This document shows, piece by piece, positions 3,154-64,000 of a stretch of 64,000 bases of DNA. The stretch is from the NCBI RefSeq assembly GCF_030542965.1, contig NZ_JAUAOA010000016.1:1-64000 (forward strand), written 5' to 3'. Source of the DNA: Azotosporobacter soli. GTDB lineage: Bacteria; Bacillota; Negativicutes; SG130. Under the pieces are notes generated by a model. That model saw nothing but the letters and a program-made list of their open reading frames with translations, was not told where the DNA came from and did no database searches. Position 1 is the stretch's first letter; each line of letters starts with the position of its first letter. The translations under genes and the position numbers were made by a program.

Positions 3154-4338
3154 ATGAATGCATTAAAGGGAATTCGTATTTTAGATTTGAGCAGGGTGTT
3201 AGCGGGGCCGTATTGCACGATGATGCTGGCTGATTTTGGCGCTGATGTGGTAAAAATAGAGCCGCCGAACGGCGGAGACGATTCGCGCAGCTTTGGGCCG
3301 TTTATCGGCAGAGAAAGTGCATATTTTATGAGTCTTAATCGCAATAAGAGATCGATCGTTCTTGACCTGAAGAAGGAAGAAGACAAGGGTGTTTTTAAAG
3401 AGCTGGTGAAAAATGCCGACGTCGTTGTTGAAAACTATCGGCCGGGTACAATGGAAAAATTCGGTCTTGGCTATGAAACATTGAAGGAAGTGAATCCGAA
3501 AATCATTTACGCTGCCTGTTCCGGTTTTGGCGATAGCGGTCCGTACCGGCAGAAACCTGCGTATGATATCATCGTTCAGGCGATGGGCGGTATCATGAGT
3601 ATAACCGGAGCTGAGGGCGGCGAAGCGACGCGCGTCGGTGCGTCGATTGGAGACTTGGCGGCAGGCATGTTTACCGCGTATGGCGTGATGCTGGCGCTTT
3701 TCCACCGCGAGAGGACACAAGAAGGACAAAAAGTGGATGTCGCAATGCTCGACTGTCAGGTTGCGATGCTGGAGAATGCCGTGGCGCGCTATGCGATATC
3801 CGGCAGCAGTCCGAAACCTCTCGGCAACCGTCATCCTTCCATAACACCCTTTGCAGCTTTCACGGCAGCCGACGGACAACTGATTGTCGGGGCAGGAAAT
3901 GAGCGTCTTTGGCGTAAACTCTGCCAAATTATCGGGCACGATGAATGGCTTGATGATCCGCGCTTCAGCGACAATGGGCAACGCACGGCAAACGCGGCGC
4001 AGCTGATGGCGCTGCTGAACGGAGTCTTTGTCAAAAAGACGGTAAAAGAGTGGTTATGCCTTCTGGAAGGGGCAGAACTGCCATGTGCGCCGATCAACGA
4101 TATCGAAAAGATGATGGCTGATCCGCAGATCAAAGCGCGTGAAATGATTGTGGAATTGGAGCATCCAAGCGCCGGAGTTGTGAAAATGCCGGGAATTCCG
4201 GTGAAATTGTCAAAAACGCCGGGGAAAATCGCAGCCGCTGCACCTCGTTTAGGCGAACACACTAAGGATATACTGGCGGAAGTTAAGGAGAAAGCGCAGG
4301 AAGAGGCAATGCTATGGCCGCAGGCGTCAGGGCACTAA
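3154..4338 (+). CDS. Family III CoA-transferase (CaiB/BaiF)
   Basis: A 394-residue member of the CaiB/BaiF family, which moves CoA between carboxylic acids. The start chosen is the ATG at 3154, preceded by AAAAAGGAG; the open frame extends upstream but without family similarity. Typical features are LSRVLAGPYCTMMLADFGADVVKIE at the N-terminus (residues about 10-34), NRNKRSI, the catalytic-aspartate region PAYDIIVQAMGG, and the C-terminal GEHTKDIL. The length is normal for the family. Substrates cannot be inferred: no dehydratase, racemase or acyl-CoA dehydrogenase is adjacent. It appears monocistronic, with a terminator on each side. Confidence 0.92.
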   Translation: MNALKGIRILDLSRVLAGPYCTMMLADFGADVVKIEPPNGGDDSRSFGPFIGRESAYFMSLNRNKRSIVLDLKKEEDKGVFKELVKNADVVVENYRPGTMEKFGLGYETLKEVNPKIIYAACSGFGDSGPYRQKPAYDIIVQAMGGIMSITGAEGGEATRVGASIGDLAAGMFTAYGVMLALFHRERTQEGQKVDVAMLDCQVAMLENAVARYAISGSSPKPLGNRHPSITPFAAFTAADGQLIVGAGNERLWRKLCQIIGHDEWLDDPRFSDNGQRTANAAQLMALLNGVFVKKTVKEWLCLLEGAELPCAPINDIEKMMADPQIKAREMIVELEHPSAGVVKMPGIPVKLSKTPGKIAAAAPRLGEHTKDILAEVKEKAQEEAMLWPQASGH

Positions 4339-13861: not shown

Positions 13862-14533
13862 ATGAAAAAACAACAAGCAATAAAAAGCAAAAGTTGTACC
13901 GATTGCGGGGTGTATAATTGCCGGAATCTGGATGCGACATTTCCGGCGTTTTGCTTGACTACGCAAAGTCGAGGCGAACATGGGATGGATGAAATGATTA
14001 GCGGCGTCACCGATTATTTGCGCGGCGAGCATCAGGATGCGCTAGTGGCGCGTGTTTCCGCACAGATTGAAGGGCGTTTTTACGGTAAACTGACTAGAGT
14101 CGAAGAAATTGTTGAGTTCGCGAAAGGGATTGGTGCAAAAAAAATCGGCATTGCAACGTGCGCCGGGTTGATCCAGGAAGCTAAAATTTTTGCTGCGATC
14201 CTCAGTGCGAAAGGCTTGGAATCGTATAGCGCCATTTGTAAAGTCGGTGCGGTCGATAAAACCGAGATTGGCTTGGCTGAACAGGATAAACTGCGGCCAG
14301 GAAAGCATGAGGCGATGTGCAACCCGATTCTGCAGGCGCAATTGTTAAATCAGCAAGAAACCGATTTAAATGTTGTGATTGGATTGTGCGTTGGTCATGA
14401 TTCGCTGTTTCTCAAACATTCCGAGGCGCTGGTGACAACTCTGGTGGTTAAGGATCGCGTGATGGCGCATAATCCCGTAGGTGCATTGTATAATGCGCAA
14501 TCGTACTACAAACGTTTATTGCAAGAGTCATAA
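13862..14533 (+). CDS. DUF1847 putative metal-binding protein
   Basis: 223 residues from the ATG at 13862 (a GTG two codons earlier is possible). The N-terminal CTDCGVYNC is the metal-binding Cys motif of DUF1847 proteins, followed by a Rossmann-like region (KKIGIATCAGLIQEAKIFAAIL). A third Cys cluster (AMCNP, GLCVGHDS) follows. These proteins are common in anaerobes; their function is unknown. It is followed after 19 bases by a cystine-type ABC importer, so it may be part of that transcript. The structured leader in front suggests control at the RNA level. Confidence 0.85.
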   Translation: MKKQQAIKSKSCTDCGVYNCRNLDATFPAFCLTTQSRGEHGMDEMISGVTDYLRGEHQDALVARVSAQIEGRFYGKLTRVEEIVEFAKGIGAKKIGIATCAGLIQEAKIFAAILSAKGLESYSAICKVGAVDKTEIGLAEQDKLRPGKHEAMCNPILQAQLLNQQETDLNVVIGLCVGHDSLFLKHSEALVTTLVVKDRVMAHNPVGALYNAQSYYKRLLQES

Positions 14534-54440: not shown

Positions 54441-55040
54441 ATGATAATGACGAAACAAGATTATTTACTTTATTTAACGGCAGATCGAATTGCTTTGGGA
54501 GAGACGCGCATAAGTCCTAGATGGTTTGGTGATGAAATTTGGAAATTTCAGAGACTCTTGCGGAAGGCTGAATACCTGAAAAATTGCAAGAGCGGATTGT
54601 TTTGGCAATTATACTATCAATATGTTCAATTCAAACGTCATTATCTGGGGATTTTTTTAGGTCTGAGTATTCCTTTGAATGTATTTGGACCGGGGCTGTC
54701 AATTGTTCATTATGGCACGGTTATTGTGAATAGTGGGGCGGTTGTTGGCGCTAACTGTCGTATTCATGGCTGTGTTAATATCGGCAGCCAAGCAGGGAAT
54801 GTTACACAGGCTCCAGTGATCGGCGACAACGTCTACATTGGACCGGGGGCAAAGCTGTTTGGTACGATCAAAATTGCCGACGGCATTGCAATCGGAGCAA
54901 ATGCCGTCGTCAATAAGTCTTTTTTTGAGCGGAATATAACGATTGCCGGAATGCCGGCACGAAAAATATCTGAAAGAGGCGCAGGAGAATATGTAATTGA
55001 TGCACTTGCTGCAGCGAAGCTACAGGTTGCAAGCGCATGA
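54441..55040 (+). CDS. Serine-acetyltransferase-like hexapeptide protein
   Basis: 199 residues from the ATG at 54441 (AAAAGGAGGGGG upstream). Left-handed beta-helix in the C-terminal half: GPGLSIVHYGTVIVNSGAVV, ANCRIHGCVNIGSQ, VIGDNVYIGPGAKLFGTIKI and IAIGANAVVNKSF, with the GLSIVHYGT region typical of CysE-related enzymes. In polysaccharide loci such proteins usually O-acetylate sugars rather than serine. It overlaps the next gene by four bases. Confidence 0.82.
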   Translation: MIMTKQDYLLYLTADRIALGETRISPRWFGDEIWKFQRLLRKAEYLKNCKSGLFWQLYYQYVQFKRHYLGIFLGLSIPLNVFGPGLSIVHYGTVIVNSGAVVGANCRIHGCVNIGSQAGNVTQAPVIGDNVYIGPGAKLFGTIKIADGIAIGANAVVNKSFFERNITIAGMPARKISERGAGEYVIDALAAAKLQVASA

Positions 55041-56188
55041 GATATGGGAAAATAGTATTGTTACTAATTTTGCTTGTAAGTTTTTGCGGTTGCAACTTTA
55101 ATTTAATAGCATTAAAAACAGGGGATTCTCAGCCAATGTTGCATAACAATGCTAAAGAAAATGTACATAAGACGATGATAGAGATGGAGAGCTTTGGCGC
55201 AAAGGGGGATGGGACAACTGATGATACGGTGGCATTTCAAACAGCTGTGAACTCGTTAGCCAGCGATAAATGGTTACATATACCGGCTGGAACCTATATG
55301 GTGGATGAAATCATGTTGCGTGCTGGTGCTGAGCTAGTCGGAGATGATGGAGCTGTCATAAAAAGCAGGACAGTCGGCAAAGAAATTTTCCATATAGCTG
55401 TGGATAATGTAACATTGCGCAACCTGATCATTGACGGAGATATGAAACGAAAAAATGCAATAAAAATGCTGGAGGCCAATGGAATTACAATTGAAAACTG
55501 TGAGATTAGAAATACGTATGGAGACAGTGTAGAATCCGGTTCTTGGGCGATCCTAATAAAAGGCGGTAGCAACATTGCAATCCAGGACTGTTATTTTCAT
55601 GATATCAGCGGTCCCGAAAATGGCGTTCAGGGCGACAGTGTCGGGGCCAATCGAGCAGTTTGGAGTTGGAATGTGGCATCGATGACAATTATGAATTGTA
55701 GATTTGAGGAAATACGCGGATTTGAGGATGGAGACTGTATACAGATAACGGGAGAAAATGGTTGGCATTCGGATGTGAAGATACAAGACTGCAATTTTAA
55801 CGGGTTTTATAAAAGGGCTATCAAAGTGCAGACATCTGGCGTAAAGATTATTCACAATATGATGACTGCTCATCCGGAAGCCGATCAAAAACGCAATTTT
55901 CAGGCGGCTATATCGATTTTTGCTGGCGATAATTTGGTTGATAATAATGTGATTGTGTTGCATAATTCCCGACTGGGTGTGGATTTGAACGGCCGAAACT
56001 GTAAAGTCGTCAATAACATGATTAGCGTGGATGAAGCGGGGAACAATAAAAGAACAGCGGGTATATATGTTTCAGCAGCGGCCAGTAACAGCACTGTTGA
56101 AAACAATACGATTTGCAATATTGCCGATGCAATTGAAATTAACAAGACAAGCATTGGCGTTGTGGAAAGAAAAAATATTCGGCAGTGA
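55037..56188 (+). CDS. Right-handed beta-helix lipoprotein (pectate-lyase-3-like)
   Basis: 383 residues. A lipoprotein signal peptide ends SFCGC (Cys19). FGAKGDGTTDDTVAFQTAVN is the start of pectate-lyase-3-type beta-helix domains; the following 300 residues show repeated NI/VT-D/N-C turns (VTLRNLIIDGD, ITIENCEIRN, IAIQDCYFHD, MTIMNCRFEE, VKIQDCNFNG). It may be a lyase or a polysaccharide-binding factor that trims the product during export. Catalytic residues cannot be named. It starts in the stop of the previous gene (ATGA) and is the last exopolysaccharide gene. Confidence 0.82.
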   Translation: MRYGKIVLLLILLVSFCGCNFNLIALKTGDSQPMLHNNAKENVHKTMIEMESFGAKGDGTTDDTVAFQTAVNSLASDKWLHIPAGTYMVDEIMLRAGAELVGDDGAVIKSRTVGKEIFHIAVDNVTLRNLIIDGDMKRKNAIKMLEANGITIENCEIRNTYGDSVESGSWAILIKGGSNIAIQDCYFHDISGPENGVQGDSVGANRAVWSWNVASMTIMNCRFEEIRGFEDGDCIQITGENGWHSDVKIQDCNFNGFYKRAIKVQTSGVKIIHNMMTAHPEADQKRNFQAAISIFAGDNLVDNNVIVLHNSRLGVDLNGRNCKVVNNMISVDEAGNNKRTAGIYVSAAASNSTVENNTICNIADAIEINKTSIGVVERKNIRQ

Positions 56189-56212: not shown

Positions 56213-57364
56213 ATGGCGCGTGCGAGGCTGAAAACAAAAAAGCTTTTAACACCAGAATTAGAGCTGGCTCTCATCTGTTCAGGGCCGGAGGTAAGTGCGG
56301 ATGCTAAAGGGAGATTGGCGGGGATTGCAAATGGAAAAATCGATTGGACGCTGTTTCTTAAGCTAGTAATGCGGCATCAGTTATTTCCGATGATTTATTG
56401 GAGATACAAAGAACGTTATCTGCCGGTGTTCCCCGTATCTGTTGTGGCGGAGTTGCAGAAGGCCGATCGAATGAACAAGATTAGAACGATGCAAATGACA
56501 ATGGAAATGACGGAGTTGGTTAGAGGTTTGGCCGAGAGAGGCATCAGTGCAATTGTCGTCAAAGGAATACCACTGGCCCAGATGCTGTATCAGAATATAA
56601 CGCATCGCACATCAAATGACATTGACATATTAGTTAGGCAAGACGAACTGGAAGCGGCAAAACAAGTGTTGGAGGAGAGGGGGTATGAGGCGGAAAAAGA
56701 GCAGTATTGCTTGATTCATGACGCTTTGCCAGAATGGATCGAACAGACACAGAGCGTCGCATGTTTTGATGCACGGCGCAAAATCATGGTTGATCTTACC
56801 ATTTGCTTGGGATCCCATGGAGCTGTTATACCCTGGGAAGAAATTGAAGGTTGCATCGAAGAAATCATATTTGCGGGTCAGATGATCCGAGTGGTGAAAA
56901 AAGAGGTCTTGTTTTTACATTTGATTCTTCATGGTGCAGGGCATGCATGGTTTCGCTTAAAATGGCTCTTGGACATCGCCTATATACTGGAGAAAGGCGA
57001 AATTTCTTGGCGGGAGTTGTACCGATTAAGCGATAAAATCGGTGTTAGTCATATTGTGAATCAATCTTTACTCTTGGTACACGAGATTTGTGGTATCACT
57101 CTTCCAGAGAAAATTGAGCGGAAAGCCAGCAATAGTAAGGTTGCTTATAAATTAGCGCAACAGGCTATGGAGCTTATGAAAATCAGCGATTTTAATCCGG
57201 TTAAATTAGGTCCTATGCCGCCGAGTAAAACATATTTTTTATATAAAAAATATCGATTTTGCATGTTGCATAGCTGGAAACAAAGAATCCAATATGGTTA
57301 TTATGAAGTTGTGAATCTAATCATGGGTATTGGCCGAGAATTGAGCATTAAGATTAGCGGATAA
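56213..57364 (+). CDS. Nucleotidyltransferase-family protein of the lasso-peptide cluster
   Basis: 383 residues, AAGGAAGG upstream. It belongs to the large nucleotidyltransferase-fold family often found in RiPP clusters: VVKGIPLAQMLYQNITHRTSNDIDILV contains the DID motif that binds metal, followed by ERGYEAEKEQY, KIMVDLTICLGSHG and HGAGHAWFRLKWLLDIAY. In paeninodin-type lasso clusters such a protein sits beside the kinase; in pseudomycoidin it adds hexoses to the phosphorylated C-terminal Ser. Here it is the first gene of the lasso cluster and begins 24 bases after the last exopolysaccharide gene. Confidence 0.82.
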   Translation: MARARLKTKKLLTPELELALICSGPEVSADAKGRLAGIANGKIDWTLFLKLVMRHQLFPMIYWRYKERYLPVFPVSVVAELQKADRMNKIRTMQMTMEMTELVRGLAERGISAIVVKGIPLAQMLYQNITHRTSNDIDILVRQDELEAAKQVLEERGYEAEKEQYCLIHDALPEWIEQTQSVACFDARRKIMVDLTICLGSHGAVIPWEEIEGCIEEIIFAGQMIRVVKKEVLFLHLILHGAGHAWFRLKWLLDIAYILEKGEISWRELYRLSDKIGVSHIVNQSLLLVHEICGITLPEKIERKASNSKVAYKLAQQAMELMKISDFNPVKLGPMPPSKTYFLYKKYRFCMLHSWKQRIQYGYYEVVNLIMGIGRELSIKISG

Positions 57365-57438
57365 GTTTCGGCAGCATTGTATAAATGTGATGAAAAATGC
57401 AGATGAAGTTCGGCAATAGCAAGAAAGGAAGAACAACT

Positions 57439-58389
57439 ATGAAGGATTATGCTAACGAGACGGGACGTAAAACATATCGTTACACCGTATACGGAATCAG
57501 TATTGAATCAGAATTGATGCTGCCTGAATTGAACATGACGGATAACAGCGTTACAGACGTAAAAATCGAAATCGGAAATGTAACGGATAAACTTGCGGTT
57601 GAAATACCGGACACAGGCAGTTATTGCTATTCGCAATCGGGAGAATTCATATATTGCGTAGAAGGGATCGGTGCATATCTGGTTTCGGGGGGCAGTCGAA
57701 TTACAGTGCAACCTTATCGGCAGGCGGATGGGAATATGGTAAAGCTGTTTTTGCTAGGAACAATAATGGGAGTGCTGCTTATGCAGCGCGGATTGGCAGT
57801 GCTTCATGGGAGTTCGGTGCTAATCAATGGGCAAGGTGTTCTGTTTACGGGATTATCGGGTGCGGGAAAATCGACGATGGCTGCGGCCTTGCACCGACGT
57901 GGCTATTGTCTGATGGCTGATGACGTATCACCTCTACAGAGGGACGAACAAGGTCAGTTTTGGATTCAGCCTGGTTATCCGCAACAAAAATTATGGCAGG
58001 AAAGTGCGGAACTTGTCGGCATCAATACAGAAAATCTAGAAGTTGTTTCCGATGTATGGAAAAAATTTGCGTTGCCGCTCAAGGAAGGATTTCATGCGAC
58101 TGCCGTCCCGTTGGCGGCTGTATATGAAATCGTTGCCCGTCAAGGCGGCGATATTGAAATTAGGCCGCTAAGAGGCGCAGCTAAAATGAGTATGATTATG
58201 GAAAACACATATCGCTGCGAACTGATGGATTGTTTAGGGCTGCGTATACAACATTTTGAGCAATGCGGTGCGATTGCTCGGCAATTGCCAGTGTTTCAAC
58301 TGTCGCGCCCGGAGAAGGTGGATAGCTTACAGAAACAAGTGGAAGCTGTTGTGAGCCATTTGACTCAGCTTGACGCAAAACAGGCGTGA
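57439..58389 (+). CDS. HPr-kinase-like lasso peptide kinase
   Basis: 316 residues from the ATG at 57439 (AAGAAAGGA upstream). The C-terminal half resembles HPr kinase: LHGSSVLINGQGVLFTGLSG leads into the P-loop GLSGAGKSTMAAAL (about 152-165), followed by LMADDVSPLQ, the acidic metal site, and PGYPQQKLW. The N-terminal 120 residues are the variable domain of this group. Related kinases in Firmicute lasso clusters (PaeK, ThcoK) phosphorylate the C-terminal Ser of the precursor. Both precursors encoded downstream end in Ser. Confidence 0.87.
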   Translation: MKDYANETGRKTYRYTVYGISIESELMLPELNMTDNSVTDVKIEIGNVTDKLAVEIPDTGSYCYSQSGEFIYCVEGIGAYLVSGGSRITVQPYRQADGNMVKLFLLGTIMGVLLMQRGLAVLHGSSVLINGQGVLFTGLSGAGKSTMAAALHRRGYCLMADDVSPLQRDEQGQFWIQPGYPQQKLWQESAELVGINTENLEVVSDVWKKFALPLKEGFHATAVPLAAVYEIVARQGGDIEIRPLRGAAKMSMIMENTYRCELMDCLGLRIQHFEQCGAIARQLPVFQLSRPEKVDSLQKQVEAVVSHLTQLDAKQA

Positions 58390-58428: not shown

Positions 58429-58719
58429 ATGAAATCGACGAATAGTATTGAAATGGATACGATTGTAGTGCAGATAGAGGGGTTGGTGGCAGCCGATATG
58501 GATGGAGAAAAGGTCATGTTGAATATTACAACAGGAAAATACTTTGGTTTGGATCAAGTTGGTAGCCGAATTTGGGAATTGATTGAAACGCCCTGCGCCG
58601 TGTATGAAATTATTCAAAGTTTACGATTGGATTACGAGGTGCATGAGGAAACATGTCAAAAGGATGTACTGACTTTTCTAGGCCTCCTTCAGATACGTGG
58701 ACTTATTACCATTGTTTAA
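58429..58719 (+). CDS. PqqD-like RiPP recognition protein (lasso B1)
   Basis: 96 residues, ACGGAGG upstream. PqqD/RRE fold: VMLNITTGKYFGLDQVGSRIWELIETP with the usual YFxLDxxGxxIW core, then a helical C-terminus. In split lasso systems this B1 protein binds the leader peptide and delivers it to the B2 protease. The next gene overlaps its 3' end by 23 bases, a typical B1-B2 arrangement. Confidence 0.9.
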   Translation: MKSTNSIEMDTIVVQIEGLVAADMDGEKVMLNITTGKYFGLDQVGSRIWELIETPCAVYEIIQSLRLDYEVHEETCQKDVLTFLGLLQIRGLITIV

Positions 58720-59158
58720 ACGATTGCGGCAATTTAATGGTTTGGCTTGGTGCGAGCAGAGTTTAATCATCCGAATTGTGATTCTCACGGCAGCGGCCCG
58801 CACAGCCATATTGTTGCTGCCGTTTTGCAAATTGTCGTTACTGCTAGGGAAGGAAAAGTCTGAATCGCCTGCCATGGCGACACAGCAGGAATACACGGCA
58901 GCCTGGCAGGTTGGTAGTATGATTGAACGCGTGAGCCGCTATACGCCGTGGCAAAGCAAGTGTCTTGTTCAGGCCTTGGTGGGGAAGTTGTTATTGCAGC
59001 GGCTGGGGATTGACGCAACGCTGTATATGGGGGTAGCGAAAGATGCGGATAATAAAATGATTGCGCATGCTTGGCTACGGTGTGGTGAAATGATCGTCAC
59101 CGGGAGTGCTGGGCGGGAACAGTTCACGGTGGTTGGTTGCTTCGCAAGCAGGAAATAA
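58697..59158 (+). CDS. Lasso peptide leader protease (B2, transglutaminase-like)
   Basis: 153 residues, GTG start within the B1 gene. The C-terminal Cys-protease domain contains the catalytic Cys in SKCLVQALVGKLLLQRLGI (about Cys87), the GIDATLYMGVAKD strand, and the catalytic His in MIAHAWLRCGEMIVTG (about His121). It cuts the leader and, with the cyclase, gives the lasso fold. The N-terminal part (LAWCEQSLIIRIVILTAAAR) is the usual helical segment of this family. Confidence 0.9.
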   Translation: MDLLPLFKRLRQFNGLAWCEQSLIIRIVILTAAARTAILLLPFCKLSLLLGKEKSESPAMATQQEYTAAWQVGSMIERVSRYTPWQSKCLVQALVGKLLLQRLGIDATLYMGVAKDADNKMIAHAWLRCGEMIVTGSAGREQFTVVGCFASRK

Positions 59159-59192: not shown

Positions 59193-59330
59193 ATGAATAA
59201 TGAAAAGACAGTTTGGACAGTGCCTCAGGTAACCGAGCTTTCGGTCGCAATGACCGAGTCGCAAAAGACTGGCGATCATTCGGATATGTGGACGGCCAGC
59301 CTAAATTTGTGCGGCGCGATACATTCTTAA
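59193..59330 (+). CDS. Lasso peptide precursor A1
   Basis: 45 residues, too short for most gene callers, with a near-ideal ribosome site AAAGGAGGTGA. The leader (22 residues, ending VTELSVAMTE) has the WTVPQV motif in the place of the YxxPxL motif bound by B1. Thr at -2 (MTE, then Ser) is the hallmark of the lasso cleavage site. The predicted core is 23 residues: SQKTGDHSDMWTASLNLCG then AIHS. Asp9 is at a normal ring position, giving a nine-residue ring between Ser1 and Asp9. The core contains one Cys (Cys18) and ends in Ser23. Ser as first residue is less common than Gly. Confidence 0.87.
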   Translation: MNNEKTVWTVPQVTELSVAMTESQKTGDHSDMWTASLNLCGAIHS

Positions 59331-59382
59331 GTTGTCGATGTCATTAGAGTAAATAGAAAAATAGTAAAGGAGGAAGATCAAA

Positions 59383-59535
59383 ATGGAAAAAGCAATTTGG
59401 ACGAGCCCGCAAGTTATGGAACTCGATATCAAAATGACGGAAGCTTATTATAACAAGAAGGGCGGAGGCAGCGACATGTATACCGGCGAGACGGGTATCA
59501 ATGGTCAATTAATACCTTGCCCGGCCTGTAGTTAA
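59383..59535 (+). CDS. Lasso-type peptide precursor A2, unusual core
   Basis: 50 residues, AAAGGAGGAAG upstream. The leader has the same pattern as A1 (WTSPQV, then ELDIKMTE), so it should be handled by the same B1 and B2. If cut after TE the core is 30 residues starting AYYNKKGGGSDMYT; the first acidic residues are Asp11 and Glu16, outside the 7-9 window for lasso rings. Aligning by the shared SDM(W/Y)T motif puts this Asp two residues later than in A1. If cleavage were two residues later (after TEAY), Asp would be at position 9. The core ends CPACS, a CxxC followed by a terminal Ser. Confidence 0.85.
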   Translation: MEKAIWTSPQVMELDIKMTEAYYNKKGGGSDMYTGETGINGQLIPCPACS

Positions 59536-59549
59536 TAAGGTAGCCGTAT

Positions 59550-59638
59550 AAAACTGCCTGGGCTTGCTTCGGCCTAAGGTTGCCGGTCGTTAAAATGACA
59601 GAACCGGCGCCTTGGCGGGCAGGCTAGGCAGGTTTTTA
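59550..59638 (+). terminator. Large structured hairpin between precursor A2 and the cyclase gene
   Basis: A long imperfect stem-loop: outer arms AAAACTGCCT and AGGCAGGTTTTT, middle arms GCCTAAGG/CCTTGGC, inner arms GCCGGT/ACCGGC. It ends in five T. As in other RiPP operons it may stop part of the transcripts so that the precursor is made in excess over the cyclase and exporter. Confidence 0.6.
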
Positions 59639-59696
59639 TTGCAAGGAGATAAGCCTTGCATCTATGGAGTATTGTGAAGACTGGCGGTATGCGGTT

Positions 59697-61655
59697 ATGA
59701 GTGCAATTTACGGTATCTTCCATTATGACGGATGCCCGGTGGAGGCGAACGTCGGAGCGGCGATGCAGGAAAAAATGGCGGTTTTCCCTGCGGATGCATG
59801 TAAAACATTCTTGGATAAAGATGTTTTTTTAGGCTGCCGGGCGCAGTTTATTACGCCTGAATCGTTATGCGAAGTGCTGCCTTATCAGGACCTGCCAAAC
59901 CGGATGACTATTACGGCTGATGCCATCATCGACAACCGGATGTCTTTGTTAGCGGCGATGGGAATTGCGGCGGATCAGGGGGCTAGAATTCCCGATAGCC
60001 TATTGATTCTGAAAGCGTATCAAAAATGGGGTCGAGAATGTCCCAAATATTTGATCGGTGATTTTGCTTTTGTCATTTGGGATGAAAGACAGCGGTGTAT
60101 GTTTTGTGCCGTCGATCACGCCGGAACCAGGACGTTATATTATTACCGGGCAGCTGGTGTATTTGCTTTCTCCACACTTCTTAAGCCGTTATTCTCCCAT
60201 CCGGCGATTCCGGCTCGACACGACGACATGTGGATTGGCGATTTTTTGGCGATTCCATCGGTTATGCATCAACTGGATGCAGAGTTGACGCTGTACCAGG
60301 ATGTTTATCTCCTGCCAGCGGGCCATAGCTTGAGTGTGGGTGGGGACGGTTCTGTTATTAAAGAGGTATATTGGCAGGTACAGGAGCAGCCGGAATTGGT
60401 GCTTAAATCTGATGCTGAATATGAAGAAGCTTTGCGCGATGTACTGTCAGAAGCGGTGCGTTGCCGAATGCGAAGCATCCTGCCGGTGGGGGTAATGTTG
60501 AGCGGCGGATTGGATTCGCCAGCGGTCGCGGCACTGGCGGCCAAGGAACTAAAAGGGCAACGGTTGGCGGCTTTCAGCATGACGCCCATGATTGGCTATC
60601 GTGACTGGCTCCCGATCGATGGAAGCGCGATTGCTGATGAGACGCCATTTGTAGAAGCGGTGAGCCAATACATCGGCAATATTGACGTAACTTATTGCCG
60701 GGCCTCGGGCCTCCATCCGATGAGTGATACCGAGCGTCTGACTAGGATTTTGGAGCAGCCATATAAGATATTTGAAAATTTATTTTGGATTGATAATATC
60801 ATTGCTGAAGCTAAACAAAAAGGGGTCGGTGTCTTGTTGCACGGTAGCGTCGGTAACATGACGATTTCTTGGGGCGAAAAGCAAAGCTATCTGGTATCTC
60901 TACTGCAGTATAGGCGATGGCGCCGTTTGCTGCGAGAAAGTTGGGTGACTTCAAGGCGATACCGGGAACCGAATAAAATGTTATACGCGTTACTCGGCGG
61001 CCTGCTGCCGGTCGGCTGCCAAAAAATACTCTCGCTGTTGCAGAGCGGAAATCATGATGCATGGGTATCGGAACTACCGCCGATTAATCCTGCATTTGCA
61101 GAGAAAATGGGCAGCCGGGAACGATTTAATCGGTTTGGCTACGATTTGTCCGGCGTCAGTCGAAAAACTTCCTTTGAGTGCCGTCAGGATCAGATGCAAC
61201 CCAGTTTTTTTGCGCATGTCAGCACACTTAGTACTAAATTGCTATTGTCATACGGCATGGTGATGCGTGATCCGACGCTAGACAGACGGGTTATTGAGTT
61301 TTGTCTGCGACTGCCGGAAGATCAGTATGTGAGGAATGGACGAGAGCGGTTTTTGATTCGAAGGGCGATGAAAGGTTTGCTGCCGGACAAGGTGCGTTTG
61401 AACGAACGCGTCCGGGGAAATCAGACTGCCGATATTGCGCAGCGATTGCAGCCGGTTTGGCCAGAATTGACAACGGAAATCAGTCTGATCGGTCGACGTC
61501 CGGCTGAAAAAAAATATCTGGACATTTGCAAAATAAAACGACAATTGGAAAAACATCCGGTAATCAATGATGATGAAAGTGAAAACTCGGGCGTGCGAAT
61601 GTTGATACGCAGCTTGATTTTTAGTCGCTTTTTGCAAAGTGAGGGGAAAATATGA
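59697..61655 (+). CDS. Lasso cyclase (asparagine-synthetase-like, C protein)
   Basis: 652 residues from the ATG at 59697, chosen because lasso cyclases begin MSAIxGIFHxD; an ATG at 59664 has AAGGAG but too far away. Position 2 is Ser instead of the glutaminase Cys of AsnB, as usual in lasso cyclases. The synthetase half begins GVMLSGGLDSPAVAALAAK (PPi motif SGGLDS). It adenylates the ring Asp and forms the isopeptide bond with the core N-terminus. It ends in a four-base overlap with the exporter gene. Confidence 0.92.
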   Translation: MSAIYGIFHYDGCPVEANVGAAMQEKMAVFPADACKTFLDKDVFLGCRAQFITPESLCEVLPYQDLPNRMTITADAIIDNRMSLLAAMGIAADQGARIPDSLLILKAYQKWGRECPKYLIGDFAFVIWDERQRCMFCAVDHAGTRTLYYYRAAGVFAFSTLLKPLFSHPAIPARHDDMWIGDFLAIPSVMHQLDAELTLYQDVYLLPAGHSLSVGGDGSVIKEVYWQVQEQPELVLKSDAEYEEALRDVLSEAVRCRMRSILPVGVMLSGGLDSPAVAALAAKELKGQRLAAFSMTPMIGYRDWLPIDGSAIADETPFVEAVSQYIGNIDVTYCRASGLHPMSDTERLTRILEQPYKIFENLFWIDNIIAEAKQKGVGVLLHGSVGNMTISWGEKQSYLVSLLQYRRWRRLLRESWVTSRRYREPNKMLYALLGGLLPVGCQKILSLLQSGNHDAWVSELPPINPAFAEKMGSRERFNRFGYDLSGVSRKTSFECRQDQMQPSFFAHVSTLSTKLLLSYGMVMRDPTLDRRVIEFCLRLPEDQYVRNGRERFLIRRAMKGLLPDKVRLNERVRGNQTADIAQRLQPVWPELTTEISLIGRRPAEKKYLDICKIKRQLEKHPVINDDESENSGVRMLIRSLIFSRFLQSEGKI

Positions 61656-63451
61656 ATCTGATTGTCGACTATATCTGCGAGTTGTATCGGTTTTCCCGCG
61701 GGAAATTTTTAGCTGCGTTGAGTCTCATGATTTTATTGGGGCTATTGGAGGGGGTCGGCGTCGTGCTGATTATTCCGTTGTTGGGAGTCGCCGGAATTAT
61801 TCCAGGTCTTGGTGGGCAAGTCGGATTAATGGGGGATTTGAATCGATTTTGCCTTCAACTGGGCATTGGCATAAGCTTGCCGTTGATTCTTGTGGTATAT
61901 TTATTGCTCAATCTGAGTCAAAGCCTACTGCAACGCTGGCAGACGCTGTTGAATGTCGACATCCAACAATCGTTTTGCCAATTTTTGGCGGTTCGTTTGT
62001 TTCGGGCGATTGCGTATGCAAAATGGCAGCTTCTAATGACCAAGGCAAAATCAGAACTGATGCATATTATTTTCAGTGAATTGATGCAAATCGGCACTGC
62101 GGCGTTAAGCATGCTGGGATTGATTGCGTTAGTTATGGTAACGGCGGTTCAGATCATTCTGGCTCTTTGGATTGCGCCGTTGCTTACGGTTGCGGTATTG
62201 GTTGCCGCCGCTTTCCTGTTTTGGGGCATGCGGCCGTTCCTAGGAGAGTCTCGCAAACGCGGCCACGTAATCATGGAAGGAAATCGTGAACTGTTCAACG
62301 ATCTGACCGAACACTTGAACGGGATAAAGGAAATTAAAAGTTACAGCATTGAAGCGGCACAAGTGGATAACTTTTCCAGGCTGTATGGGATATTGAAGGG
62401 AAATGTGATACGGTTTCAGCGGTTGCAGACTAGGACGGATATGCTGTATAAGATGGGTGCAACGGTATTCATTTCGTTGTTCTTATATATAGCTATTGAC
62501 GTCTTTAAGCTACGCCCGGAAGAATTCGTTTTGATTACGGTGATTTCCTCCCGACTTTGGCCCAGATTTTCGTCGATGCAAACGAGTCTGCAAAATATTA
62601 ACATGCTGCTGCCGTCGTTCAAGTCGGTAAGGGAGCTAGAGCAGCAGTGCTTGGTAAATAGCGAAAATTTGCCGAATGGAGTCGACGTAAAGCGCTTGAA
62701 ATTACAGCGCGGCATTGAACTGCGTGATGTTTCATTTGCTTATGCCGGAAAAGTGAATCGCCCAGCCGTAACGGGAATTTGTGCGATGCTGCCATCTGGA
62801 ACGACGACGGCTTTGGTGGGTGTGTCTGGTGCTGGAAAGAGCACTTTGGTCGACTTGCTAATCGGGTTATTGATACCGAAGCATGGCGTGGTATTGATTG
62901 ATGGCAAGCCGTTGCAAGAAAACTTGAGAGCATGGCGAAACTCTATTGGTTACGTATCCCAGGATCCATTTTTAATCAATGCCAGCATCAGGGAAAATTT
63001 GAAATGGGCTTCTCCGGCAGCATCAGATGGCGAGGTGTGGGAAGCGTTAAGACTGGCTGCCGCCGACGGATTTGTAAGTGCGTTGCCGGAGGGATTGTCC
63101 ACGGTTGTGGGGGATAGAGGCGTTAGGTTATCAGGTGGTGAACGTCAACGAATTGTTCTGGCCAGAGCGCTACTCCGAAAACCGGCTATTCTCATTTTGG
63201 ACGAGGCGACCAGTGCATTGGATTCGGAAAATGAAAAAAGGATACAGCAGGCTATCGAGGGGCTGCAGGGGAAAATGACGATTGTCGTGATTGCGCATCG
63301 CATATCGACGATTCGAAATGCCGATCAAATCTTTGTTGTTGAACAGGGCAGGATCGTTGAACAAGGAAATTATCAGTCGCTAACGAAAGACGGTTCCAGT
63401 CGGTTCTATAGTTTGGCCAGCCTGTATAACGCCAGCAGTGATGTCGGTTAA
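61652..63451 (+). CDS. Lasso peptide ABC exporter (D protein)
   Basis: 599 residues, ATGA overlap with the cyclase. N-terminal transmembrane domain of about six helices (1-310) and a C-terminal ATPase: Walker A GVSGAGKST, Q-loop YVSQDPFLINASIRENL, signature LSGGERQRIVLARALL, Walker B ILILDEATSALD, H-loop IAHRI. Half-transporter of the MsbA/McjD type, working as a homodimer. It exports the mature peptide and gives self-immunity. Confidence 0.92.
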   Translation: MNLIVDYICELYRFSRGKFLAALSLMILLGLLEGVGVVLIIPLLGVAGIIPGLGGQVGLMGDLNRFCLQLGIGISLPLILVVYLLLNLSQSLLQRWQTLLNVDIQQSFCQFLAVRLFRAIAYAKWQLLMTKAKSELMHIIFSELMQIGTAALSMLGLIALVMVTAVQIILALWIAPLLTVAVLVAAAFLFWGMRPFLGESRKRGHVIMEGNRELFNDLTEHLNGIKEIKSYSIEAAQVDNFSRLYGILKGNVIRFQRLQTRTDMLYKMGATVFISLFLYIAIDVFKLRPEEFVLITVISSRLWPRFSSMQTSLQNINMLLPSFKSVRELEQQCLVNSENLPNGVDVKRLKLQRGIELRDVSFAYAGKVNRPAVTGICAMLPSGTTTALVGVSGAGKSTLVDLLIGLLIPKHGVVLIDGKPLQENLRAWRNSIGYVSQDPFLINASIRENLKWASPAASDGEVWEALRLAAADGFVSALPEGLSTVVGDRGVRLSGGERQRIVLARALLRKPAILILDEATSALDSENEKRIQQAIEGLQGKMTIVVIAHRISTIRNADQIFVVEQGRIVEQGNYQSLTKDGSSRFYSLASLYNASSDVG

Positions 63452-63475
63452 ATGGAAAATCGGAAGGAGAAAGGA

Positions 63476-64000
63476 ATGAAAAAATCGGCTGTTGCATTGT
63501 TGTCTGTTTTATTGTTAACTCTGTATAGTACGCCGACTTCTCAAGCAGCTACGATTAATTATTATTATTCGGAGCATTGTGAAAACTGTAAGGCCTTCGC
63601 TCCCTATTGGGAAAAATTTGTTGCAGAAAAGAGCGGAGAACATCAGTTTGAGAAAAAACAGACCGATGCTTCGGTTGAAAATAAGAATGAACTGCTGAAT
63701 CGTAATATGCAATATCGAGGCATTGCGCATACTGAAATTCCCGCTATTTTAGTAACCGACAATCAGGCGGGCGAAGACGTGTTGCTGATCGGTCTGGAGG
63801 AAATCAATCTGCTGCCGGAAATACTCGGTGAAAATGGGCGACTGATTCCTGGAATGGAGTCTCGAGAGCTGACGTCAGCCATTATTACCCGCAGCGGCAA
63901 AATGCCGACTTCGCTCTTTTATCCGTTTACCCTAGCCGCATTGGCTGATGCCAGTAATCCATGCGCATTGTTTGTGTTCATTGTTGCTACCAGCTATGCT
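63476..64000 (+). CDS. Thioredoxin-like/CcdA-like membrane protein, 3' end outside the window
   Basis: 175 codons are visible from the ATG at 63476 (GGAAGGAGAAAGG upstream). A signal peptide (about 1-24) is followed by a thioredoxin-like domain with INYYYSEHCENCKAF, a CENC redox motif (about Cys36 and Cys39), and FEKKQTDASVENKNELLNRN. After about residue 150 a membrane part begins: FYPFTLAALADASNPCALFV, resembling the NPC motif of CcdA/DsbD membrane domains. It may move reducing power to extracytoplasmic thiols. It is 24 bases after the lasso exporter, so co-transcribed. Confidence 0.8.
   Translation, partial: MKKSAVALLSVLLLTLYSTPTSQAATINYYYSEHCENCKAFAPYWEKFVAEKSGEHQFEKKQTDASVENKNELLNRNMQYRGIAHTEIPAILVTDNQAGEDVLLIGLEEINLLPEILGENGRLIPGMESRELTSAIITRSGKMPTSLFYPFTLAALADASNPCALFVFIVATSYA

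Follow-up and report, generated by a model that had tools for sequence, protein, structure and literature searches.

The second precursor gene (A2) of a lasso peptide cluster in Azotosporobacter soli carries its first acidic core residue at position 11. This displacement is genuine, is repeated in relatives and has no explanation under the standard rule, which places the ring acid at core position 7-9 (PMC10368454). It is seen in members of two bacterial classes, and comparison of related precursors argues strongly that Asp11 is homologous to the canonical Asp9. A2 is lasso-precursor-like by its leader, its machinery and its tail, and the best explanation of its sequence is that it is a functional precursor, the second substrate of a lasso pathway of the paeninodin type. 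We infer the chemistry by which its ring would be closed from the comparisons described below.

A2 lies within the analyzed window, a 64 000-nucleotide stretch of A. soli DNA, in a complete paeninodin-type lasso set with the gene order NTP_transf_5, HprK-like kinase, B1, B2, A1, A2, C, ABC exporter and thioredoxin-CcdA-like fusion, all on the plus strand. The NTP_transf_5 protein (56213..57364; PF14907, 180 bits, over the cut-off) and the HprK-like kinase (57397..58389; PF07475, 39.8 against a cut-off of 33.3 bits) are followed by B1, a PqqD-type RiPP recognition element (58429..58719; NF033536, 101.3 bits against a cut-off of 80; PF05402), and B2, a transglutaminase-like leader peptidase (58697..59158; NF033537, 104.2 against 33 bits; PF13471). 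The kinase has the Walker A motif GLSGAGKST and is predicted to phosphorylate the C-terminal Ser of the precursor, the terminal Ser being the phosphorylation site in paeninodin (PMC9266682). The first precursor, A1 (59193..59330), comprises 45 residues with the core SQKTGDHSDMWTASLNLCGAIHS, which contains Asp9 and ends in AIHS. C (59664..61655) is an asparagine-synthetase-like macrolactam cyclase with an SGGLDS motif and an Asn_synthase domain, for which the best family is NF033535 (398 bits against a cut-off of 525). It is the only lasso cyclase gene found in the genome, and A1 and A2 therefore share one cyclase. The ABC exporter, D, follows at 61652..63451. Between A2 and C lies a strong hairpin with a T-run (59554..59632; plus strand; -50.8 kcal/mol for 119 nt, z -4.09), with a terminator-like site at 59611-59628; the hairpin is probably an attenuator that would keep the precursors more strongly expressed than the cyclase. 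The cluster is flanked by three genes for right-handed beta-helix proteins (55037-56188 in the window; 67890-69005 and 69031-70203 in the same contig), and another is encoded near the G091 cluster (L084 14552-15685).

The A2 gene (59383..59535, plus strand) is an intact open reading frame with an ATG start and a Shine-Dalgarno-like GGAGG 9 nt upstream (59369..59373). Its 50-residue product consists of a leader (residues 1-20, MEKAIWTSPQVMELDIKMTE) and a predicted core (residues 21-50, AYYNKKGGGSDMYTGETGINGQLIPCPACS), the latter spanning 30 residues (59443..59532) if cleavage occurs after T19-E20, in the W(-15)/T(-2) register demonstrated for PbaA/PbaB1 (PMC13381572). The leader contains a WxxP motif (WTSP), and W6 and T19 are 13 residues apart as in A1, so that the Thr register is the same and both precursors have Trp at -15 and Thr at -2. 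A2 is 49% identical to A1 (E 2e-5), and the two have SDM(W/Y)T in common, as the preliminary description had pointed out: SDMYT in A2 is the counterpart of SDMWT in A1, where Asp is residue 9. Counted from T(-2), the only acids of the A2 core are Asp11 (59473..59475) and Glu16, which bears out the earlier statement that Asp11 is the first acid after a TE cut and leaves core positions 7-9 without Asp or Glu. Glu16 was considered as the ring acceptor and rejected, as it is not conserved and lies far from the ring module. The tail contains no bulky aromatic residue beyond Tyr13 and ends in CPACS (59518..59532), a Cys pair with a terminal Ser that is a predicted phosphorylation site; a C-terminal Ser is present in all 21 of the related precursors described next. 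Against the NCBIfam PadeA model NF033524, a paeninodin precursor model, A2 scores 13.8 bits (cut-off 27) and A1 gives no match.

Relatives were collected through searches for lasso B2 and cyclase proteins in 380 genomes of the window's class, 113 of the class of Desulforamulus aquiferis and 43 of a third class, as well as in an even sample of the phylum (398 genomes). These yielded 21 precursors adjoining cyclases close to that of the window (hereafter kin) and 18 others; cyclase scans of genome contigs, viral and plasmid sequences gave few or no additional kin. Core positions 7-9 lack an acid in eight of the 21 kin precursors versus one of the 18 outside the group (Fisher p 0.02, relatedness ignored). 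The displaced Asp of these eight is at position 10 (G297, G299 and Desulforamulus, which form one clade of three clusters), 11 (A2, G794 and G837), 12 (G799) or 20. The last case, G795_A2 (L089 13882-14022), has no acids other than those at core positions 5 and 20 and lies directly before an intact cyclase gene at 14248. Asp9 is found in A1, G091_A1, G855, G795_A1, three precursors of G842, two of G840 and G315; one G840 core has both Asp9 and Asp10, and G091_A2 and the second Desulforamulus precursor combine an acid at 7-8 with Asp12. The Desulforamulus draft contains frameshifts in several cluster genes, and an apparent one-base error had to be bridged to read the start of its precursor. All displaced precursors directly precede the cyclase gene, and for six of the eight no other precursor is present there. 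Mapped onto the cyclase tree, the label 'Asp at position 10 or beyond' requires about six changes, at least four of them forced by well-supported branches; the displaced state has hence arisen or been lost several times. A strict tie between the displaced Asp and a C-terminal Cys pair was considered and rejected, given that G837 and G799 are displaced without the pair and that Cys tails accompany Asp9 in G855, G795_A1 and G842.

Two further precursors were also encountered. A paeninodin-like precursor from Bacilli (L106 of G1260, 3535-3666, minus strand) reads LGTEPNGNIDD, with no Lys and its first eligible acid at position 10, and is by its sequence a candidate for a natural 10-residue ring outside the kin group. 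A WxxP precursor of G842 (L075 4004-4168) has a core, NYQAHGLNGPHLPNLPHGSNGPQGPHTLQVIS, without any acidic residue and adjoins B1, kinase and exporter genes.

Alignment of the precursors separates a fixed part from a variable one. In the leader, W and T are 13 residues apart in 21/21 kin and in 24 of the 25 aligned precursors, among them all displaced members, and T(-2) never varies within this alignment. When the first set was aligned on Asp, Lys was found at Asp-6 in 14/15 precursors, and it occupies this position in all seven displaced members aligned (p 1e-5; matched in at most 1 of 100 000 trials in which the residues before Asp were shuffled). Each of the 21 kin has Lys before Asp, never Arg, at a spacing of 6 (18/21) or 7 (3/21), and the distance from T to Asp ranges from 9 to 20. 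Gly at Asp-4 and an aromatic-Thr pair after Asp are common. The ring module can therefore be written as K-x-(G)-x-x-x-D with fixed internal spacing, and variation is confined to the stretch between T-E and Lys. In A2, Lys5 (59455..59457), the homologue of the invariant Lys, is six residues before Asp11, and the two extra residues, Ala-Tyr, fall between the cut motif and the module. Because both the W-T and the Lys-Asp spacings are fixed, Asp11 is best read as the homologue of A1 Asp9 displaced by a two-residue insertion. The sister-species orthologues G840 and G842 differ by a single AGG (Arg) codon inserted between Thr and the ring module, and have Lys and the last Asp in common. A charged residue 1 is found in 7/21 kin versus 0/18 of the other precursors, and in displaced members the stretch between Lys and Asp tends to be rich in Gly and Ser (GGGS, SGSG, GGSG, GGGG, SGSGS). 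As the Lys-Asp distance is the fixed element, Lys5 becomes a third candidate ring partner. The preliminary description had missed this partner, together with the fixed Lys-Asp distance and the recurrence across two classes, though it had rightly posed the dilemma between an 11-residue ring and a shifted cut.

In the route proposed here, the HprK-like kinase would phosphorylate the C-terminal Ser of A2, B1 would hold its WxxP leader, B2 would cut after T-E as in A1, and C would activate Asp11 rather than Glu16 and then join it to an amine. We consider it reasonably probable that A2 is cut after T-E and closed on Asp11. That Ala1 supplies this amine through its N-terminus, for a ring of 11 residues and 34 atoms, is put forward tentatively; in that case the same single cyclase would form a 9-residue ring from A1 and an 11-residue ring from A2. 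Closure of Asp11 on Ala1 and closure on the epsilon-amine of Lys5 remain about equal. The complete cluster, an intact A2 gene with its own ribosome site, the invariant T(-2) at its fixed distance from Trp, the occurrence of Asp at 10, 11 or 12 in relatives, the repeated appearance of a displaced Asp on the cyclase tree and the AGG insertion seen between G840 and G842 all speak for the Ala1-Asp11 ring, as do the Gly/Ser-rich Lys-Asp stretch, which a wider ring might need, and the Bacilli precursor LGTEPNGNID, which lacks Lys and has Asp10. Lasso machinery is also known to tolerate some variation: that of fusilassin accepts engineered rings of 7-10 residues, and one caulosegnin cyclase natively yields rings of 8 and 9 (PMC13352647). 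Against this, a one-residue change in ring size usually lowers yield according to the literature, and a 34-atom ring would exceed any natural lasso ring found described; a literature search for natural lasso rings of more than nine residues (including 10 and 11) found none, with most subscription papers outside its scope. The constancy of the Lys-Asp distance, the confinement of insertions to the N-terminal side of Lys and the charged residue 1 are left unexplained by N-terminal closure, which also fails for G795_A2, where the acids are only at 5 and 20. Since the tail is poor in bulky residues, a wide A2 ring would need the Cys pair or the phospho-Ser as a stopper.

Closure on the conserved Lys would account for all these unexplained points, including G795_A2, though we regard it as somewhat doubtful. 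B2 would again cut after T-E, and C would link the epsilon-amine of Lys (Lys5 in A2) to Asp11. The residues N-terminal of Lys would then, on the same doubtful footing, be excluded from the ring and form a free tail, possibly of variable length. A Lys-Asp bridge contains 26 ring atoms at a spacing of 6 and 29 at a spacing of 7, equal to rings closed from the N-terminus onto Glu8 and Glu9, and the 26-atom size is that of the Gly1-Glu8 ring of microcin J25. Such a ring agrees with the invariance of Lys 6 or 7 residues before Asp across a T-to-Asp distance of 9 to 20, and would leave residue 1 unconstrained and free to be charged. In G795_A2 the sole Lys, at position 14, lies six residues before Asp20, a coincidence with a chance of about 0.04, and Lys-free relatives retain Asp at 8-9, save for a single case at 10. 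The three cores of G840, which were read once the Lys idea had been noted, also fit, but are orthologues of cores already seen, and the hypothesis itself took shape with the data in view. The chemistry described for lasso cyclases uses the N-terminal alpha-amine, and a literature search, with most subscription papers outside its scope, found no precedent for closure on Lys. The sister group without Lys, whose cyclases are about 50% identical, appears canonical. Paenibacillus-like cores (e.g. AGKGYRQID) likewise carry Lys at Asp-6, where a close homologue has Thr, so that Lys at this position is not essential in such cores. In G840, the insertion is accompanied by a neighbouring Pro-to-Asp change that creates an acid at position 9, and Lys could be kept for target binding instead.

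A cut two residues later (TEAY|Y), the other arm of the dilemma, would give a normal 9-residue Tyr1-Asp9 ring and is unlikely. The core Y-N-K-K-G-G-G-S-D does align residue for residue with the 9-residue cores FNKVGFDPD and LNKSGYSTD, and all three Asp10 cores would begin with Gln if cut in this way. However, the invariant Thr, held at a distance of 13 from Trp in 21/21 kin, would be moved to -3, -4, -5 or further, and the residues newly at -2 (A, M, K, H, E, G) have nothing in common. Position -2 is Thr in 94% of cases across lasso clusters, and in microcin J25 this Thr is modelled in the pocket of the RRE and protease (PMC11420955). A shifted cut would also require cleavage after Pro in G794 (TEMP|S) and 11 residues further downstream in G795_A2. 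The shift to TEAY is therefore possible, as had been suggested, but disfavoured.

It is rather improbable that A2 is cut and phosphorylated but left uncyclized, to be exported as a linear phosphopeptide beside the A1 lasso. Linear polyphosphorylated peptides are a described relative of this family (PMC13381572), and clusters with B1, B2, kinase, exporter and WxxP leaders but no cyclase are found in G296 (L094) and G298 (L093), genomes in which searches returned no lasso cyclase and only asparagine-synthase matches of about 195 bits. The products of these two clusters are apparently linear and made with a lasso-type protease. Every displaced precursor nonetheless directly precedes a cyclase gene, in most cases alone, and no member with a related cyclase has lost the Lys-Asp module. 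The broader suggestion of a different class of product likewise found little support: A2 has a WxxP leader rather than the YxxP of linear polyphosphorylated peptides, the cyclase gene directly follows, and no SipW-like signal peptidase was found among the cluster genes examined. Assignment to linear polyphosphorylated peptides or another RiPP class was rejected on the leader and the adjacent C. A pseudogene, decoy or chance open reading frame is highly improbable: the sub-threshold NCBIfam score of A2 would suit it, but the frame is intact, with a good ribosome site, conserved leader, ring module and C-terminal Cys-Ser motif, the two-precursor order recurs in G091, and the comparison of related precursors proposed earlier as a check shows the feature recurring, so that this option, too, is weakened by relatives that lack neither gene nor feature. 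The remaining probability falls to something outside these readings.

The tail of A2 may have a redox partner. The thioredoxin-CcdA-like fusion at the end of the cluster (63452..64000, plus strand; running to 64582 in the contig, L034) has homologues in G091 (68% identity), G297 (44%) and G299 (43%), and such a gene lies beside 4/4 Negativicutes clusters with Cys-pair tails and 0/7 without (1 in 330 by counting, relatedness ignored). We know of no role for this gene beside Cys-pair lasso clusters. In such diderm bacteria, its product could hold the Cys tails in the reduced state or rearrange their disulfides outside the cytoplasm, and a disulfide loop or the phospho-Ser could act as the ring stopper of A2.

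Among known systems, A2 is most readily compared with paeninodin (PadeA of Paenibacillus dendritiformis) and other kinase-tailored lassos of Bacillota, with which it has in common the split B1/B2, C, HprK-like kinase, NTP_transf_5 protein, WxxP leader, T(-2) and C-terminal Ser. It differs from them in having Asp at 11 rather than 7-9, a terminal Ser preceded by a Cys pair, an invariant Lys six residues before Asp and a thioredoxin-CcdA gene alongside. Pseudomycoidin (Psm) of Bacillus pseudomycoides is similar in that a kinase and a nucleotidyltransferase-like enzyme act on the C-terminal Ser, the nucleotidyltransferase homologue being required for the hexose on phospho-Ser (PMC9266682), whereas A2 is set apart by its Cys tail and by the position of its ring acid. 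Fusilassin/fuscanodin variants and caulosegnins offer examples of one cyclase forming rings of different size (7-10 by engineering, 8 and 9 in nature; PMC13352647), but none at 11 residues and none natural above 9. Linear polyphosphorylated peptides resemble the A2 system in their RRE, HprK-like kinase, NTP transferase and exporter, but have a YxxP leader and a SipW-like peptidase and lack a cyclase (PMC13381572), where A2 has WxxP, B2 and C. Finally, other lasso peptides also have Cys in the tail, class IV being defined by a disulfide there, and the sviceucin cluster includes a thioredoxin-fold gene (PMC9266682); in A2 the Cys pair is instead at the extreme C-terminus beside a predicted phospho-Ser, with CPAC making a disulfide possible.

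Genome mining for lasso peptides presupposes an acid at 7-9 relative to T(-2), and neither A1 nor A2 is annotated by the family model NF033524. The standard definition of a lasso peptide asks for such an acid and for an N-terminal macrolactam ring through which the tail is threaded. As A2 departs from the 7-9 rule when tested, it should not be classified as a typical lasso peptide. The window provides an internal control, with one cyclase and one protease facing two substrates that differ in register. Should Lys closure, on balance a doubtful proposition, hold in this clade, its products would be two-tailed lassos with a ring of normal size (26 or 29 atoms) and a free N-terminal tail. If Asp11 is used, either the natural limit on ring size or the identity of the ring amine would have to be rewritten, and a cyclase making such rings would be in hand for peptide design.
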